The notes below the pieces were generated by a model. That model did not search any database. It was not told the origin of the DNA and worked only from the letters and a program-made list of their open reading frames with translations. 49,740 nt of DNA, from NCBI GenBank assembly GCA_947487175.1, contig CANKVM010000007.1, positions 1 through 49,740 on the forward strand. The letters are read 5' to 3'. The DNA is from Flavobacteriales bacterium (GTDB lineage Bacteria; Bacteroidota; Bacteroidia; NS11-12g; UBA955). Position numbers and translations under genes: made by a program. Positions 26,030 through 47,093 of the stretch are shown piece by piece; position 1 is the first letter of the stretch; each line of letters starts with the position of its first letter.

Positions 26030-26599
26030 TTAATCATTTGCCACATGGAAAACAATAAATTCTGCGTTTTCTGGTGTAATATTATTTTTATCTAAATATT
26101 TCGAAATGGCTTCTTCAAGTGCTTTTTCACCCTTTTCTTTGAATAGGAAGAAGCAATACCATTTAAAATAAAAGTAATCAAAGGCTTTTGAGAGTTTATA
26201 CTCTGTGATTTGCAGGGCCTTTGAGAATTTCTTCGGGTATTTATACATTTCTACGCGAATAGCTGGCAACATATCGAACGACTCAGGAAATACCTGAGGG
26301 TATTTTTTCTCCATCAAACGCATTGCGAAAAGCATTACGTCTATTGAATCAATGGCTTCGGTATATTTGATTAAATTACCTAATCCAAAACTCGGTAGCT
26401 CATTGATACGGGAATACAGAGCATATGCACAGAGCTTTTTAATTGAATCATTTGTTGGATTTCGATTATAAACTTTCTCAATTTCCTCGCAATAACGAAT
26501 CATTGGATCAGCAGGCTGTTTTCTTTTGGCATTGATCTTTTGACCAAATAAATTACCACTGCCTATTAAAACCGAAATAATGATTAAAAAGTATTTCAT
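26030..26599 (-). CDS. Unrecognised exported protein
   Basis: The protein is 189 aa. A signal peptide (MKYFLIIISVLIGSGNLFG, cleavage near FGQ) is followed by a charged, mostly helical domain rich in Lys, Tyr and Glu. I see no known motif; helices such as EEAISKYLDKNNITPENAEF could suggest a repeat-like bundle, but this is weak. Its ATG lies only 11 bp from the mini-hairpin array at 26611-26761. Its mRNA leader, if any, must therefore run through that array. Confidence 0.7.
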   Translation of the reverse strand: MKYFLIIISVLIGSGNLFGQKINAKRKQPADPMIRYCEEIEKVYNRNPTNDSIKKLCAYALYSRINELPSFGLGNLIKYTEAIDSIDVMLFAMRLMEKKYPQVFPESFDMLPAIRVEMYKYPKKFSKALQITEYKLSKAFDYFYFKWYCFFLFKEKGEKALEEAISKYLDKNNITPENAEFIVFHVAND

Positions 26600-26610
26600 A
26601 TTTTATTGTT

Positions 26611-26761
26611 GTTTACACTTCGTAGTTTACGGCTTCGCCTGTTTACGCCTTTGGCTGTTTACGCTTCGTTGTTTACACTTCGTTGTTTACGCTTCGCTGT
26701 TTACGCTTCGCTGTTTATACTTCGTAGTTTAGGCTTCGCTGTTTACGCCGTTGGCTGTTTA
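26611..26761 (-). repeat. Mini-hairpin array A1 (10 units of 14/16 bp)
   Basis: On the plus strand each unit is GTTTA followed by a 9- or 11-nt cassette holding a tiny inverted repeat, for example CGCTTCGCT, CGGCTTCGCCT, CGCCTTTGGCT and CACTTCGTA. In the opposite sense the units read stem-GAA-stem-TAAAC. Unit lengths are 14, 16, 16, 14, 14, 14, 14, 14, 14 and 16, then a terminal GTTTA. It is non-coding and lies between two minus-strand genes. Confidence 0.9.
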
Positions 26762-26775
26762 ATTTATTTCCTTAC

Positions 26776-26830
26776 CTAGAATAACCCTTATAAACTTTTA
26801 TAAACCTTCATAAACCCTTATAAACCTTAG
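26776..26830 (-). repeat. 10-bp tandem repeat (family C), about 5 units
   Basis: Units CCTTATAAAC, TTTTATAAAC, CTTCATAAAC and CCTTATAAAC follow one another exactly, with degenerate units on both sides. On the minus strand this is GTTTATAAGG. It begins just after the stop of the outer-membrane barrel gene and leads into array A1. Confidence 0.85.
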
Positions 26831-26838
26831 AATTCCCC

Positions 26839-27558
26839 TCAATAATAATACTCCTCATTCTTCTTAATATTCCCCAAATTAAAATAATAGGCAATACCAA
26901 TTTGAAGATTACCACCTCTGAAGTTCAGAGGAAAGGCTTTGCTATAAAATTCACCAGTTTGAACTTGTAACTCGTGAGAGGTACTCAACGATTGTTGGTA
27001 GGTAATGTTGAACTCGTATCTATCGCCACGCTCATTGCTTCCCCCCATAACAAATCCCAAATAAATCATGGGATACCATTTGTTTGATTCTGATTGGATA
27101 ATTCTGTATGCAGGCTTTGTAGTTGCATTGTAAAATGTGTCTCGCACAGTTGAAGGACTTAAATTATAATTGATAATACCTCCAATTTTTTCCATGATGT
27201 ACATAGAACCACCAAATCTTTGCTTAAACGACAATCCCAAATTTGCATTTAAGGCTGTGATACTGCTATTTACAGAATTATCTAAGGAAAGCGTGTCGTT
27301 ATTGATCTTATATCCCTTGTTGATGATACCAGCTCCAAAATGAATGGATGAAACTCTGTTCATTTCATAATATCCGCCAAGGTTAAAAGCTGCACCCCAG
27401 CGATTTCGCGTAGTGAAGTTATTGGCTAATGTATCGGCAGATGCAGTTTTTGAAGCACATGTTGCGGCACTTAATCCCAAATACCATTTGCTTTGAGCGT
27501 TTGAATTTGAAAATAAGCAAAGACTTGCTACAAATAAAAGAATGAATTTGTTTCGCAT
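26839..27558 (-). CDS. Outer-membrane beta-barrel protein
   Basis: The protein is 239 aa. The signal peptide MRNKFILLFVASLCLFSNSNAQS is followed by alternating hydrophobic strands (KWYLGLSAATCAS, NLGGYYEMNR, SIHFGAGIINKGY, ALNANLGLSFKQRF, YEFNITYQQSL, LQIGIAYYFNLG), as in the OMP_b-brl families of Bacteroidota. The ligand or role is unknown. The frame is open back to 27654, but that start would overlap the divergent gene. The ATG at 27558 fits the signal peptide and has a TAATTTTG box 6 nt upstream. Confidence 0.8.
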   Translation of the reverse strand: MRNKFILLFVASLCLFSNSNAQSKWYLGLSAATCASKTASADTLANNFTTRNRWGAAFNLGGYYEMNRVSSIHFGAGIINKGYKINNDTLSLDNSVNSSITALNANLGLSFKQRFGGSMYIMEKIGGIINYNLSPSTVRDTFYNATTKPAYRIIQSESNKWYPMIYLGFVMGGSNERGDRYEFNITYQQSLSTSHELQVQTGEFYSKAFPLNFRGGNLQIGIAYYFNLGNIKKNEEYYY

Positions 27559-42037: not shown

Positions 42038-42787
42038 ATGAGTAAAATAGCATTGATAACTGGTGGTACCAGTGGAATTGGATTGGCAACTGCAAAGTTG
42101 TTATTGGAAAACGATTACAAAGTAATTGTAACGGGAAGAAGGGCAGAGCGTTTGTTGCAGTTTCAAGAAGAGATAGGTTCTGATAAAGTGTATACCTTGT
42201 GTTTTGACGTTCGAAGTGACGAAGAAGTGAATTTCGCATTGAATTCATTGCCAGCAGAATGGAAAAACATTGACGTTTTGGTAAATAATGCCGGTTTGGC
42301 TTGGGGCTTGGGACAATTCTTCAATGGAAATACAACGCATTGGGATACCATGATTGATACCAATATTAAAGGGTTACTTTATGTTTCAAAGGTTGTTGCC
42401 AATTGGATGAAAGATAAAAAAAGCGGGCATATTGTGAACATTGGATCTATTGCAGGAAAAGATGTGTACATGAATGGCAATGTTTATTGTGCCACTAAAC
42501 ATGCCGTTGACGCTTTAACTAGGGCAATGCGCATTGAATTGGCTGAGTTCAAAGTGAAGGTAACAGGGATTCATCCAGGTGCTGTTGAAACAGAATTCAG
42601 CGAAGTGCGATTTGATGGCGATAAAGACAGGGCTAAAAAGGTTTATGAGGGATTTGAAAACCTCATTGCCGATGATATTGCCGATGCTGTTTATTACGCA
42701 GTTTCAAGACCAGCCCACGTAAACATTAACGACTTAGTAATTATGCCAACGGCACAACCTGCGGCAGGAGTAATACATAGGAATTAG
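42038..42787 (+). CDS. Short-chain dehydrogenase/reductase
   Basis: The protein is 249 aa. It has TGGTSGIG at the N-terminus, NNAGLAWG, the catalytic GSIAGKDVYMNGNVYCATKHA (Ser ~140, Tyr and Lys ~153-157), and HPGAVETEFS. It is close to the YdfG/serine 3-dehydrogenase type, which oxidises serine or 3-hydroxy acids with NADP. The longer frame from 41921 overlaps the methyltransferase and has no SDR content, so ATG 42038 is used. Its TAG stop adjoins the 10-bp repeats. Confidence 0.9.
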   Translation: MSKIALITGGTSGIGLATAKLLLENDYKVIVTGRRAERLLQFQEEIGSDKVYTLCFDVRSDEEVNFALNSLPAEWKNIDVLVNNAGLAWGLGQFFNGNTTHWDTMIDTNIKGLLYVSKVVANWMKDKKSGHIVNIGSIAGKDVYMNGNVYCATKHAVDALTRAMRIELAEFKVKVTGIHPGAVETEFSEVRFDGDKDRAKKVYEGFENLIADDIADAVYYAVSRPAHVNINDLVIMPTAQPAAGVIHRN

Positions 42788-42790
42788 AAA

Positions 42791-42891
42791 GTTTATAAGA
42801 GTTTAGAGAGTTTATAAGGGTTTATAAAGGTTGATTTTGTTTTTCTAAACCTTTATAAACTTTTCTAAACCTTCATAAACCCTTTCATTTG
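42791..42891. repeat. Inverted pair of 10-bp repeats (family C)
   Basis: The left arm holds GTTTATAAGA, GTTTAGAGA, GTTTATAAGG and GTTTATAAAGG. After a T-rich spacer (near 42832-42844) the right arm has CTTTATAAAC, TTTTCTAAAC and CTTCATAAAC. The arms are imperfect inverted copies, so the transcript could fold into a long hairpin between the SDR and SUI1 genes. It may work as a terminator or as mRNA protection (inference). Confidence 0.8.
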
Positions 42892-42901
42892 AAAGTTTAT
42901 T

Positions 42902-43228
42902 ATGAGCAACAAAAACAAAAACAAATCGGGGATTGTTTATAGTACAAATCCGGATTATCAGTATGACGCTGAGAGCGAGGAACAAGACACTTTGGAGCCG
43001 TCGCAACAGAAATTATATGTGAGAAGGGAAGTTCGCAATGGCAAACCTTGTATTGTGATTAAAGAATTTATTGGCAAATCTGACGATTTAAAACAGTTAG
43101 AAAAAAGCCTCAAAAACCATTGCGGCGTGGGTGGAACCAGCAAAGAAGGCGACATCATTATTCAAGGAGATACCTTGGATAAGGTGAAGAGTTTTTTGGC
43201 CGCGAAGGGGTATCGAACTAAGGGTTAG
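42902..43228 (+). CDS. SUI1/eIF1-like translation initiation factor (YciH family)
   Basis: The protein is 108 aa. A charged N-terminus is followed by the SUI1 domain: QKLYVRREVRNGKPCIVIKE, GKSDDLKQLEKSLKNHCGVGG, and IIIQGDTLDKVKSFLAAKGY. Bacterial YciH proteins resemble eukaryotic eIF1 and can influence start-codon selection. The TAG stop (43226-43228) is part of a GGGTTAGAC repeat unit. Confidence 0.9.
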   Translation: MSNKNKNKSGIVYSTNPDYQYDAESEEQDTLEPSQQKLYVRREVRNGKPCIVIKEFIGKSDDLKQLEKSLKNHCGVGGTSKEGDIIIQGDTLDKVKSFLAAKGYRTKG

Positions 43229-43312
43229 ACAGATATCTGAGGTTCGTGCTAAAATTAAACAGCGAAGGGTAAACTACGAAGTGTAAACTTTTCGGGATTA
43301 GACGGATTAGAC
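43222..43312 (+). repeat. 9-bp repeats (family B) around and after the SUI1 stop
   Basis: One unit GGGTTAGAC and a partial AGAT start at the SUI1 stop (from 43223). GGATTAGAC twice in tandem lies at 43295-43312. A 25-bp duplicated segment and two mini-hairpin units separate the two sets. Confidence 0.75.
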
Positions 43313-43345
43313 GGATAATTTGAGGTTCGTGCTAAAATTGAACAG
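43238..43345 (+). repeat. 25-bp direct repeat (linker), two copies
   Basis: TGAGGTTCGTGCTAAAATT followed by AAACAG (43238-43262) or GAACAG (43321-43345), 24 of 25 bases identical. Each copy is followed directly by mini-hairpin units, so it looks like a leader of the array. Confidence 0.85.
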
Positions 43346-43481
43346 GCGAAGCCGTCAACAGCATAGCGTCAACAGCTTAGTGTCAACAGGCGAAGCCGTC
43401 AACAGCATAGCGTCAACAGCCGAAGGCGTCAACTACCAAAGGTGTAAACTACCGAAGGTTTAAACAGCCGAAGGCGTAAAC
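43256..43481 (+). repeat. Mini-hairpin array A2 (2 + 9 units)
   Basis: Units 43261-43288: AGCGAAGGG and TACGAAGTG, each followed by TAAAC. Units 43344-43481: nine cassettes such as AGGCGAAGCCG, AGCATAGCG, AGCCGAAGGCG and TACCGAAGGTT, joined by TCAAC or TAAAC. Each cassette is a short inverted repeat around a triloop. The array ends 10 bp before the msrA ATG. Confidence 0.9.
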
Positions 43482-43491
43482 AATAAGAAGG

Positions 43492-44151
43492 ATGTTAAAA
43501 AACGTATTTATATTTATCATTTCAATCGGTTTTTTATCTTGTGGGAGTAAGAATTCCTCCTTGGTAGAAGGCACAAACAAAAAAAACATGGAAAATTCAA
43601 ATCAAATTGATCCAACCAAAGTTGACACTTGCGTGTTGGGTGGCGGTTGCTTTTGGTGTCTAGATGCCGTTTACAGACGTTTGCCAGGCGTATTGAATGT
43701 TGTGAGTGGTTATAGCAATGGTAAAATTGCCAATCCTACGTACCGCGAAGTTTGCTCGGGCTATACCGGTTGTGTGGAAGTGGTGAAAATCATGTTCGAT
43801 ACTACCAAAACATCTTTTGCCGAAATCCTAACTGTTTTCTGGCGGATTCATAATCCTACCACACTAAACAAACAGGGCAACGACGAAGGTACCCAATACC
43901 GAAGTGGCATTTATTATCGCAACAACGAACAAAAGGAACTCGCTTTATACAGCCTAAAAGCTGCAGAAGATGCCAAACTGTGGGACGGTAAAATTGTAAC
44001 AGAAATTCTTCCCGTAGAAAAATATTCCGACGCTGAAGACTACCACCAAAACTACTTCGAAATCAATCCTGACCAACCTTACTGCATTTATGTGGTAGGA
44101 GAAAAGGTCAAGAAGTTTGAGGAGTATATGAAGAAGTATAAAAGGGATTAG
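43492..44151 (+). CDS. msrA: Peptide methionine sulfoxide reductase MsrA, lipoprotein
   Basis: The protein is 219 aa. The N-terminal lipoprotein signal (FIFIISIGFLSCGSK, lipidated Cys ~17) places it in the envelope. The MsrA domain carries GGGCFWCLDA with the catalytic Cys, then GYSNG, NPTYREVCSGYTGCVEVV, and GNDEGTQYRSGIYY. It repairs (S)-methionine sulfoxide in exported proteins. It starts 10 bp after array A2, and its TAG stop lies inside a 9-bp repeat unit (44145-44153). Confidence 0.95.
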   Translation: MLKNVFIFIISIGFLSCGSKNSSLVEGTNKKNMENSNQIDPTKVDTCVLGGGCFWCLDAVYRRLPGVLNVVSGYSNGKIANPTYREVCSGYTGCVEVVKIMFDTTKTSFAEILTVFWRIHNPTTLNKQGNDEGTQYRSGIYYRNNEQKELALYSLKAAEDAKLWDGKIVTEILPVEKYSDAEDYHQNYFEINPDQPYCIYVVGEKVKKFEEYMKKYKRD

Positions 44152-44171
44152 ACGGGTTAGACAGATTAGAC
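44145..44171 (+). repeat. 9-bp tandem repeat (family B), 3 units
   Basis: GGATTAGAC, GGGTTAGAC and AGATTAGAC in exact tandem. The first unit contains the msrA stop codon. Confidence 0.85.
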
Positions 44172-44206
44172 TGATTTTTTGTTGATAGATTTTAGGTTTA
44201 ATTAGC

Positions 44207-44383
44207 AGCGTAGCGTCAACTACCGAAGGTGTAAACTACCGAAGGTGTAAACCACGAAGTGTAAACTACCGAAGGTGTAAACTACCGAAGGTGTAAACCA
44301 CGCAGTGTAAACCACGAAGTGTAAACAGGCGTAGCCGTCAACAGCGCAGCGTCAACAGGCGAAGCCGTCAACGCACGTAGTGC
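44207..44383 (+). repeat. Mini-hairpin array A3 (11 units plus a partial)
   Basis: Cassettes AGCGTAGCG, TACCGAAGGTG (four times), CACGAAGTG (twice), CACGCAGTG, AGGCGTAGCCG, AGCGCAGCG and AGGCGAAGCCG are joined by TAAAC or TCAAC. GCACGTAGTGC ends the array. Triloops are GAA, GTA and GCA only. The 3' end of the array (44368-44383) is also the last codons of the convergent PAP2 gene. Confidence 0.92.
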
Positions 44384-45120: not shown

Positions 45121-45213
45121 TGGTTGATAGCATTTAAATTGTGTAAATATAATGTGCGTAAATCCGTTTACTAAAAAAAAGATAAAAATTAACCAATGCC
45201 ATTCACGTTTTGG

Positions 45214-45221
45214 TAACTTTG
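45214..45221 (+). promoter_or_regulatory. Promoter -7 box TAACTTTG for pckA
   Basis: A perfect TAnnTTTG match, 27 nt before the pckA ATG at 45249. It lies inside the longer open frame that begins at 45210, which argues for the downstream start. A TTG at the usual -33 distance is absent. Confidence 0.5.
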
Positions 45222-45248
45222 CAGTACAAATTTACGAAAATAAACTGT

Positions 45249-46838
45249 ATGAGTAATGAGGCATTGATTGCGAATATAAAGTCGCATGCAAAGCAAGTTT
45301 TTGAAAACTTAACCACCGATGAGCTTATCGAGAAAGCTCTCGAGAGAAATGAAGGTCAAATCACAGATAAAGGTGCCTTGGCTGCCGATACGGGAGAATT
45401 TACTGGAAGAAGTCCTAAAGACAAATTCTTGGTAAAAGATGCAAAAACTGCCGACACCGCATGGTGGGGTACTGTAAATCAGCCCTTTGAATCTGAAAAA
45501 TTCGATGCATTGTTGAACAGGGTAGTAGCGCATTTAGAAGGAAGAGAAATCTTTGTTCGTCATGCATACGCTTGTGCTGATCCAACTTATCGTTTAAATA
45601 TTCAAGTAGTTACTGAAAGTGCGTACCAAAATTTATTCGCTAAGAACTTGTTTTTACGTCCTACAGCAACTGAAATTGCAACCCAACCTTCTGAGTGGGT
45701 AATTATTGCGGCTCCTTCATTTATGGCTGATCCTGCAATTGACGGAACCCGCCAACATAACTTTACCATTGTTGATTTAACTAAGAAAATCATCTTAATT
45801 GGTGGTAGTGGTTACACTGGTGAAATTAAGAAAGGTATCTTTAGTGTGTTGAATTACATCCTTCCACAAGAAAAAGGGGTATTGAGCATGCATTGTTCAG
45901 CGAATATTGGTAAGGACAACGACACTGCTGTATTCTTCGGATTGAGCGGTACCGGTAAAACTACTTTGAGTGCTGATCCTAACCGTAAATTAATCGGTGA
46001 CGATGAGCACGGATGGTCTGATTCTACTGTTTTCAATTTTGAAGGTGGTTGTTATGCAAAATGCGTAAACTTAACTGAAGAAAAAGAACCTCAAATTTGG
46101 AATGCAATTAAGCCTGGTGCTTTGGTTGAAAACGTTCGTTTCTTTGAGGGAACAAATACGCCTGATTACGACAATATTTCAGTAACCGAAAATACCCGTG
46201 TTGCATATCCTATTGACTTTATCGACAATATTGCAGAACCATCTATTGGCGATGCTCCTAAGAATATTTTCTTCTTAACTGCAGATGCTTTTGGTGTTTT
46301 GCCTCCAATTTCTAAGTTAACGCCAGGCCAAGCAATGTATCAGTTTATTTCTGGTTACACTGCGAAAGTTGCGGGTACTGAAGCGGGAGTTACTGAACCA
46401 CAAGCTACTTTCTCTGCTTGCTTTGGACAAGTTTTCTTGCCATTGCATCCTGCGAAATATGCAGAAATGTTGGGAGAGAAATTATCTGCACACCCTAATA
46501 TCAACGTTTGGTTAATCAACACTGGTTGGTCAGGTGGTGCTTACGGTGTAGGTAGCAGAATGAAATTGTCTTACACCCGTGCCATGATTACTGCGGCTTT
46601 GGAGGGACAATTGGATGGCTCGTTCACCAATCACCCTGTGTTCGGATTTGCAATGCCTGATGCTTGTCCTAACGTTCCTTCAGAATTGTTACATCCAAGA
46701 AATACTTGGGCTGACGGTGCTGAATACGATGCACAGTGTCAGAAATTGGCTAAATTGTTCAACGACAATTTCCAAAAATTTGCCGATGGATCTAGCGACG
46801 AAATCAAGGCCGCTGCTCCAAGAATGGCTACAGCTTAA
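45249..46838 (+). CDS. pckA: Phosphoenolpyruvate carboxykinase (ATP)
   Basis: The protein is 529 aa. The P-loop is FFGLSGTGKTTLSADPNR (~residue 228), followed by LIGDDEHGWSD. GRSPKDKF near the N-terminus and INTGWSGGAYGVGSRM are family signatures. It converts oxaloacetate and ATP to PEP and CO2, the gluconeogenic step. The highly expressed nature of pckA fits its regular codon use. The frame extends upstream to 45210 only because no stop intervenes. A hairpin terminator follows at 46868. Confidence 0.96.
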   Translation: MSNEALIANIKSHAKQVFENLTTDELIEKALERNEGQITDKGALAADTGEFTGRSPKDKFLVKDAKTADTAWWGTVNQPFESEKFDALLNRVVAHLEGREIFVRHAYACADPTYRLNIQVVTESAYQNLFAKNLFLRPTATEIATQPSEWVIIAAPSFMADPAIDGTRQHNFTIVDLTKKIILIGGSGYTGEIKKGIFSVLNYILPQEKGVLSMHCSANIGKDNDTAVFFGLSGTGKTTLSADPNRKLIGDDEHGWSDSTVFNFEGGCYAKCVNLTEEKEPQIWNAIKPGALVENVRFFEGTNTPDYDNISVTENTRVAYPIDFIDNIAEPSIGDAPKNIFFLTADAFGVLPPISKLTPGQAMYQFISGYTAKVAGTEAGVTEPQATFSACFGQVFLPLHPAKYAEMLGEKLSAHPNINVWLINTGWSGGAYGVGSRMKLSYTRAMITAALEGQLDGSFTNHPVFGFAMPDACPNVPSELLHPRNTWADGAEYDAQCQKLAKLFNDNFQKFADGSSDEIKAAAPRMATA

Positions 46839-46890: not shown

Positions 46891-47004
46891 GTTTACACCT
46901 ACGGTGGGTTTAGCGCTGCGCTAGTTGACGCCTTCGGCTGTTTACTCCTGCGTTAGTTGACGCTTCGCTGTTGACGCTACGCTGTTGACGGCTTCGCCTG
47001 TTTA
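46891..47004 (-). repeat. Mini-hairpin array A4 (7 units)
   Basis: Plus-strand units are GTTTA or GTTGA plus cassettes CACCTACGGTG, GCGCTGCGCTA, CGCCTTCGGCT, CTCCTGCGTTA, CGCTTCGCT, CGCTACGCT and CGGCTTCGCCT. In the opposite sense they read stem-GNA-stem-TCAAC, as in A2 and A3. The array is downstream of pckA and upstream of alaS. Confidence 0.9.
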
Positions 47005-47025: not shown

Positions 47026-47079
47026 AATCTGTCTAATCTGTCTAATCTGTCTAATCCGTCTAATCCGTCTAACCCGTCT
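47026..47079 (-). repeat. 9-bp tandem repeat (family B), 6 units
   Basis: AATCTGTCT three times, AATCCGTCT twice and AACCCGTCT once, in exact 9-bp register, followed by AATC and a T run. This is the largest set of family B and lies between array A4 and the alaS promoter. Confidence 0.9.
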
Positions 47080-47093
47080 AATCTTTTTTTGTT

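Follow-up and report, generated by a model that had tools for sequence, protein, structure and literature searches.

Covarying DNA minihairpin arrays between genes of freshwater Flavobacteriales: a probable module of a lineage-specific composite repeat

Four intergenic regions in a 49,740-nucleotide stretch of a Flavobacteriales genome (assembly GCA_947487175.1, contig CANKVM010000007.1, positions 1 to 49,740; hereafter the window) hold tandem arrays of very short hairpins, in which the two arms of the stem change together from one unit to the next. What are these arrays, and what keeps their stems paired? Here we describe them in the window's own genome (G000), in the 14-genome set of its genus (G000-G013, of which G004 and G009 are incomplete) and in wider collections. 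The reading that we favour, with modest confidence, is that the arrays are a module of a lineage-specific, non-coding and non-autonomous intergenic DNA minihairpin repeat element that spreads and rearranges at the DNA level and acts as a recombination site.

Layout of the arrays and of the composite element

The initial annotation had counted about 39 tandem units of 14 or 16 bp at four intergenic loci, each unit a TAAAC or TCAAC anchor followed by a stem-triloop cassette. This description was borne out: all four loci were found, and splitting at TNAAC gave 10, 2+9, 10 and 7 clean units (38 in all) beside some partial ones, with a single TGAAC anchor and a single 17-bp unit in addition. Each unit opens with TNAAC and a single base (A, T or C); a stem arm of 2-3 bp follows, then a triloop, the complementary arm and usually a G. 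Pairing of the AC in the preceding anchor with this G and the T of the following anchor would give an alternative reading of the letters, in which the stem of every unit is somewhat extended and carries a single bulged base.

Array A (26611-26765, minus strand, 10 units) adjoins the start of the same-strand gene at 26030-26599 on its upstream side, and a decamer tract of the GTTTATAAG type lies 5' of it (26783-26830, minus strand; period 10 by tandem repeat finder). Locus B, on the plus strand, begins with a short two-unit array (43256-43290) preceded by the leader TGAGGTTCGTGCTAAAAT, continues with the nonamer tract GATTAGACG (43296-43318, read in the sequence), and ends with a second leader copy and the nine units of array B (43339-43481), whose end adjoins the msrA start codon. 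Array C (44203-44383, plus strand) has 10 units, a degenerate first unit and a terminal GCAC-GTA-GTGC hairpin, and is placed between the convergent msrA and PAP2 genes with a nonamer tract on its 5' side (44147-44180, plus strand). Array D (46891-47004, minus strand, seven units) stands between the pckA terminator and alaS, 3' of its own nonamer tract (GATTAGACR; 47026-47084, minus strand); the gene at 45210-46838 is PEPCK according to Pfam.

Each hairpin array forms the 3' portion of a larger, polar composite, a point that the initial annotation had missed. Counted up to 180 bp away from 80 arrays, nonamers (TTAGAC(A/G)G) were found 171 times 5' on the same strand, against 4, 5 and 19 times in the other three positions, and decamers (GTTTAT(A/G)A) 91 times, against 7, 3 and 4. 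The usual layout is a nonamer or decamer tract, then an AT-rich leader, then the tandem TNAAC and minihairpin units, with some elements finishing in a larger GCAC-GNA-GTGC hairpin. Leader and array start occur as two tandem copies at locus B, and the composite may at times be copied as one unit; an equally good reason for the fixed polarity would be that the modules form a functional unit. Nonamers occur in genomes with hairpin arrays only, except for one match in G084, a genome from outside the genus, and a search for nonamer pairs found no match in G007, though this genome has hairpin arrays.

Decamer tracts (GTTTATAAGG) were seen at window positions 26783-26830 and 42784-42881. The decamer-bearing gap at 42787-42902 measures 114 bp in the window and about 124 bp in G007, against 6 bp in G001; gaps are thus invaded by decamers as well.

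Stem covariation and loop type

For the analysis of structure we took every chain of at least three units with a spacing of 12-20 bp in the fetched stretches of six genomes, with no condition on structure (n = 447). A stem of at least 2 bp was present in 417 of these 447 units, and 383 of the 417 hairpins were closed by a C-G pair. The earlier claim that the loops are GNA, mostly GAA, agrees with 311 GNA among 370 triloops (GAA 231, GCA 43, GTA 29, GGA 8; also AAA 24, ATA 7 and few others), and the four-base loops included TTTA (9), GGCA (6), GATA (6), GTTA (5) and GCTA (5). Stems came in at least 12 types and three length classes, further types across the genomes being TTGC/GCAA, CCGC/GCGG, TCGC/GCGA, GCAC/GTGC, TCCC/GGGA and CTGC/GCAG.

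The initial annotation had claimed that the stems covary and had proposed a comparison with shuffled arrays. We made this comparison on distinct cassettes from the six genomes, because repeated copies would inflate the result, with 2000 shuffles in each length class (14, 16 and 18 bp); the classes were treated separately, because a joint MAFFT alignment of all lengths put the stems in the wrong place. Perfect stems were present in 36 of 46 16-mers (shuffled mean 9.2, maximum 17) and in 19 of 33 18-mers (shuffled mean 2.9, maximum 8). Among the 14-mers, 62 of 84 pairs were paired (shuffled mean 49.0, maximum 59), whereas the number of perfect stems, 26, equalled the shuffled maximum. Covariation is thus far outside the shuffles for the 16- and 18-bp classes and more modest for the 14-bp class, and the claim holds. 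Sliding the partner by one column lowered the paired cells from 0.74, 0.91 and 0.73 to 0.30 or less, and where two cassettes differed at exactly two stem positions, these were partner positions in 26 of 35 cases, with about 7 expected. Lone stem defects on the array strand were G.T 13 times and A.C 4 times among distinct cassettes (p = 0.05, which like the covariation and loop p-values has to be read with the caveat that cassettes may share descent); the excess of G.T implies that the fold of the array strand seems to count, and points weakly to the TNAAC strand as the folding strand. For homogenisation within arrays, pooled and array-averaged figures were opposite in direction.

From covariation it had further been argued that structure, not sequence, is selected. 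The covariation is real, but this step is the weaker one: template switching has been reported to create or repair both arms of a stem in one event (PMC8794818), and because both arms can arise in one mutation, covariation alone is no proof of host selection. Selection on a binding site is another possible source of the same pattern. The arrays lend themselves to asking, in a natural setting, whether template switching, a mutational process, or selection maintains the stems. A signal that normally counts as proof of a functional RNA is found here in repeats of DNA, whose loops are of the DNA type and which have no link to transcription.

The loops are of the DNA type in that the array units combine a C-G closing pair with a GNA loop, the C(GNA)G minihairpin rule. 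Extrusion of the promoter hairpins of phage N4 from supercoiled DNA needs a C-G closing pair and a loop with 5' G and 3' A (PMC4496689), and GNA minihairpins are extraordinarily stable, GAA more so than GTA, in the oligonucleotide work of Yoshizawa (1997) as relayed by PMC6479982; GAA is the commonest loop in the arrays too. An exceptional stability of the array hairpins would follow from this published oligonucleotide and N4 work rather than from calculation here: the DNA parameters of ViennaRNA, which give all triloops equal energy and therefore cannot judge GNA loops, indicated no excess folding of whole arrays.

Distribution, insertion sites and recombination

A search of the genome and its relatives for the unit pattern, as the initial annotation had proposed, turned up many further arrays in six genomes. 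Within the genus, hairpin arrays are present in 6 of 14 genomes, in large numbers in G000, G011 and G009 and in smaller numbers in G004, G006 and G007; the same pattern search gave none or single chance-level matches in the remaining eight. Across 108 genomes of the order, positives were confined to the array genus and one short contig of G084. The strict two-unit pattern matched only G000 among 395 sampled Bacteroidota genomes, the other 394 having no match, and with a loose pattern in GTDB contigs true arrays were, among the matches listed, confined to the array genus. The carriers are thus a few related freshwater Flavobacteriales genomes with dozens of intergenic arrays.

G084 is the only genome outside the genus with both repeats, on contigs C133 and C138 (L334). 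The fetched piece, of 2.45 kb, has the same terminator and alaS start as the window, so contig L334 is likely contamination from the array genus. A phage origin was considered and rejected: in IMG/VR the strict two-unit pattern had no match, and the loose 14-mer pattern only single chance-like matches among the matches listed.

G007, G001, G002, G012 and G006 share most of the gene order around the window, and gaps that hold no array are mostly of similar length, so that relatives with empty sites allow the array insertions to be placed. The SUI1-msrA gap is 263 bp and the msrA-PAP2 gap 216 bp in the window; in G001, G002, G005 and G012 the first pair of genes overlap or abut and the second pair overlap. 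The pckA-alaS gap is 273 bp in the window against 95-111 bp in G001, G002 and G012, and the gap at 26599-26839 is 239 bp against 68 bp in G007, where it contains decamers only and no hairpin units; the sites orthologous to array A in G011 and G009 do carry an array, with different units. At the orthologous boundaries of relatives that lack arrays the gaps are shorter or close to zero, so the arrays have entered or grown recently at gene boundaries, two of which previously had no room for a conserved regulatory element.

Once in place, arrays are rearranged. Orthologous arrays in G000, G009 and G011 have kept their position and changed their unit order. In G011, a nonamer and leader segment that resembles window locus B takes the place of the middle of array C. 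In the same genome one array adjoins pckA and another alaS, with about 8 kb of genes between the two (AAA/DUF4143, Fic and unknowns), and array D of the window combines the pckA-proximal end of one of these arrays with the alaS-proximal end of the other. Contig C16 of G011 has three arrays in the same orientation. The corresponding array of G009 matches the second of these in its 5' part and the third in its 3' part, the switch falling within a single unit; G009 is without the about 10 kb between the two, and this chimera would most simply be a deletion. About 13.7 kb between the first and third C16 arrays are missing from G000 (comparable break at C126), and about 10 kb from G007 (comparable break at C4). 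In all these cases the right-hand gene is only 68-77 percent identical, and some divergence or paralogy is possible there. The arrays bound indels of 8-14 kb, whose direction may be either gain in G011 or loss elsewhere. A role in recombination, one of several that the initial annotation had suggested, has direct support in the chimeric arrays and the array-bounded indels.

Candidate explanations and known systems

In the repeat-element reading that we favour, C(GNA)G hairpins would fold very stably in single-stranded DNA and extrude from supercoiled DNA, and this hairpin formation would drive copying. The number of units would grow by slippage, and template switching inside a hairpin would make the stems symmetrical again, so that stems would be kept partly in this way. 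Recombination between loci would let arrays swap segments, and recombination between direct copies would delete or insert the gene blocks in between. The element would presumably have no host function that maintains it, though such a function is possible. This reading draws on the closing-pair and loop rule, the scarcity of GNRA loops, the excess of G.T defects, the independence of array strand from gene strand, the over-representation of arrays in convergent gaps, the empty sites in relatives, the chimeric arrays and the composite polarity; against it, the search described below turned up no enzyme of dispersal. Arrays of this sort would mark recombination hot spots of a new kind, with an influence on gene order in freshwater Flavobacteriales.

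An alternative, in our judgement unlikely, is that the arrays are sites comparable to those of REP/RAYT, IS200/IS605 or integron attC, at which a structure-specific recombinase or transposase reads the folded strand and moves gene blocks. The dozens of dispersed copies with fixed polarity and the hairpin strand preference are in keeping with this, as are the contents of the 8-14 kb blocks between direct arrays, which hold Fic, AAA/DUF4143 and type IX secretion-signal proteins. Against it, the G009 crossover lies inside a unit at a short shared sequence and looks homeologous rather than like a fixed cut site, and the search for an enzyme excluded the two movers considered: Y1_Tnp (PF01797, RAYT-type) is absent from the carriers G000, G004, G006, G007, G009 and G011, of which G004 and G009 are incomplete, and was found in the genus only in G013, a genome without arrays; a reverse transcriptase (PF00078, as for retrons, DGRs or group II introns) is likewise absent from the array carriers and present only in array-free G012. 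There is a small chance that the arrays form a shape-defined chromosomal family, of minihairpins that are extruded or single-stranded and are read by a putative recombinase or DNA-binding protein, capturing and releasing gene blocks.

Host defects that might permit the arrays were also considered. Loss of MutS was rejected as a cause, mutS being present in all 14 genomes (fragmented in some drafts). A second, weaker match to the MutS family was seen in G000 (G000:C45:1624-2457), with one in-frame TGA; it may be a pseudogene or reflect a sequencing error. Loss of SbcD was rejected as well: the cut-off of TIGR00619, which found a match in 13 of 14 control genomes, was reached in none of the genus genomes, carriers and non-carriers alike. 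The SbcD hairpin nuclease may thus be missing in the genus, and since its absence is the same in both groups, it would be at most permissive.

That the arrays are kept by host selection to bind a protein as supercoil-extruded hairpins, serving for instance as a supercoil sink or an architectural site where genes converge, seems to us distinctly unlikely. It would fit the conserved C(GNA)G rule, which favours extrusion, and the retention of array positions in G000, G009 and G011. It would also fit the distribution over gap types, where arrays of at least three units occupied 22 of 61 gaps between convergent genes, 24 of 198 between tandem genes and 11 of 63 between divergent ones in the fetched stretches; as these stretches were picked for holding arrays and genes were called as simple ORFs, the figures are informative only relative to one another, and the convergent enrichment may reflect promoter avoidance only. 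However, 8 of the 14 genus genomes do without arrays, relatives leave zero space at array boundaries, and unit number and order change fast between close genomes.

A role in RNA, as 3' stabilisers of mRNA, 5' leaders or bidirectional terminators, is very unlikely. Two window arrays do lie directly upstream of start codons on the strand of the gene, hairpins exist on both strands, and convergent gaps are enriched. In tandem gaps, however, the array strand was co-oriented with the genes in 16 cases and opposed in 12, showing that it is independent of transcription. RNA folding of whole arrays on the array strand was near that of dinucleotide shuffles for three arrays (z of 0.9, -0.1 and -0.3) and moderately stronger for the fourth only (-2.6). 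Among GNNA four-base loops, GNYA outnumbered GNRA by 24 to 2 (p = 1e-5 in a binomial test that ignores relatedness), which counts against selection of RNA tetraloops. Array D, moreover, is oriented opposite to its neighbours and has a distinct terminator-like hairpin next to it, and at two of the array sites the genes of relatives leave no gap. The mRNA 3' and 5' roles offered by the initial annotation are therefore not supported. An Rfam 15 scan of the window matched a tRNA and none of the arrays.

Microsatellite-like drift, in which a chance hairpin multiplies by slippage and shared cassette ancestry mimics covariation, is hard to separate from the repeat-element reading within a single array and would account for near-identical local runs (AGCGAAGCG in L294, CCGCGAAGCGGAG in L320) and the limited set of stem types, but it is highly improbable given the number of stem types and length classes, the excess of paired two-step differences, the dispersal over tens of loci and the fixed composite polarity.

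Interspersed mosaic intergenic repeats are a known class, and the arrays share features with several of its members. Like REP/BIME/RAYT systems (PMC2817692, PMC12306157), they are short extragenic palindromes in many copies, at dozens of dispersed loci, that form mosaic composites with compensating changes and are lineage-specific. REPs, in contrast, are mostly longer, share a conserved GTAG/GTGG-type head and come with a cognate RAYT gene, whereas the arrays consist of head-to-tail units of 14-18 bp with a TNAAC anchor in place of that head and variable stems, in carriers without a Y1 transposase. The TAACTGA heptamer repeats of Beggiatoaceae, Cyanobacteria and some Bacteroidetes (PMC4679880) are also tandem intergenic direct repeats; for two Bacteroidetes, the gaps of relatives are shorter and free of repeats, and a part in rearranging genes was proposed. 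The heptamer is fixed, however, and the description consulted mentions no covarying hairpin or composite polarity. Tandem repeat finder detected no TAACTGA unit in the window. Staphylococcal STAR elements (PMC3532100) are interspersed intergenic direct repeats that expand and contract as well, but STAR loci are stable and each has a distinct sequence, whereas array cassettes are shared between loci and replaced.

Two further systems resemble the single hairpin. The promoters of the phage N4 virion RNA polymerase (PMC4496689) are C-G-closed minihairpins with G..A loops that extrude from supercoiled DNA and whose non-conserved stem bases may vary if pairing is kept; they are single phage hairpins recognised by a polymerase, whereas the arrays are chromosomal and tandem. 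The d(GCGNAGC) minihairpins (Yoshizawa 1997, in the account of PMC6479982) have the core motif in common with the arrays and are in vitro oligonucleotides, not a genomic family. The initial annotation knew of no repeat family of this design; consistently, we found none described with covarying minihairpin units and polar tracts in Rfam 15 and a set of open-access papers, a scope on which priority is not claimable.

Other repeats were encountered beside the arrays. A conserved leader palindrome 5' of the arrays was considered and rejected, the best stems being no longer than in shuffled sequence. A tandem repeat of about 50 bp (TTTTCAAACGTAAAGTAAAATTCGAACCTTTTTGCAATA) is present in an intergenic region of G000 (L291:661-830). 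In related stretches (L297:1680-2580 and L316:14980-15340) there is a second class of hairpins with TCTAAAC anchors (GCACGAAGTGC TTC, GACCGGCAGGTC TTC), mixed with telomere-like CCCTAAA heptamers.
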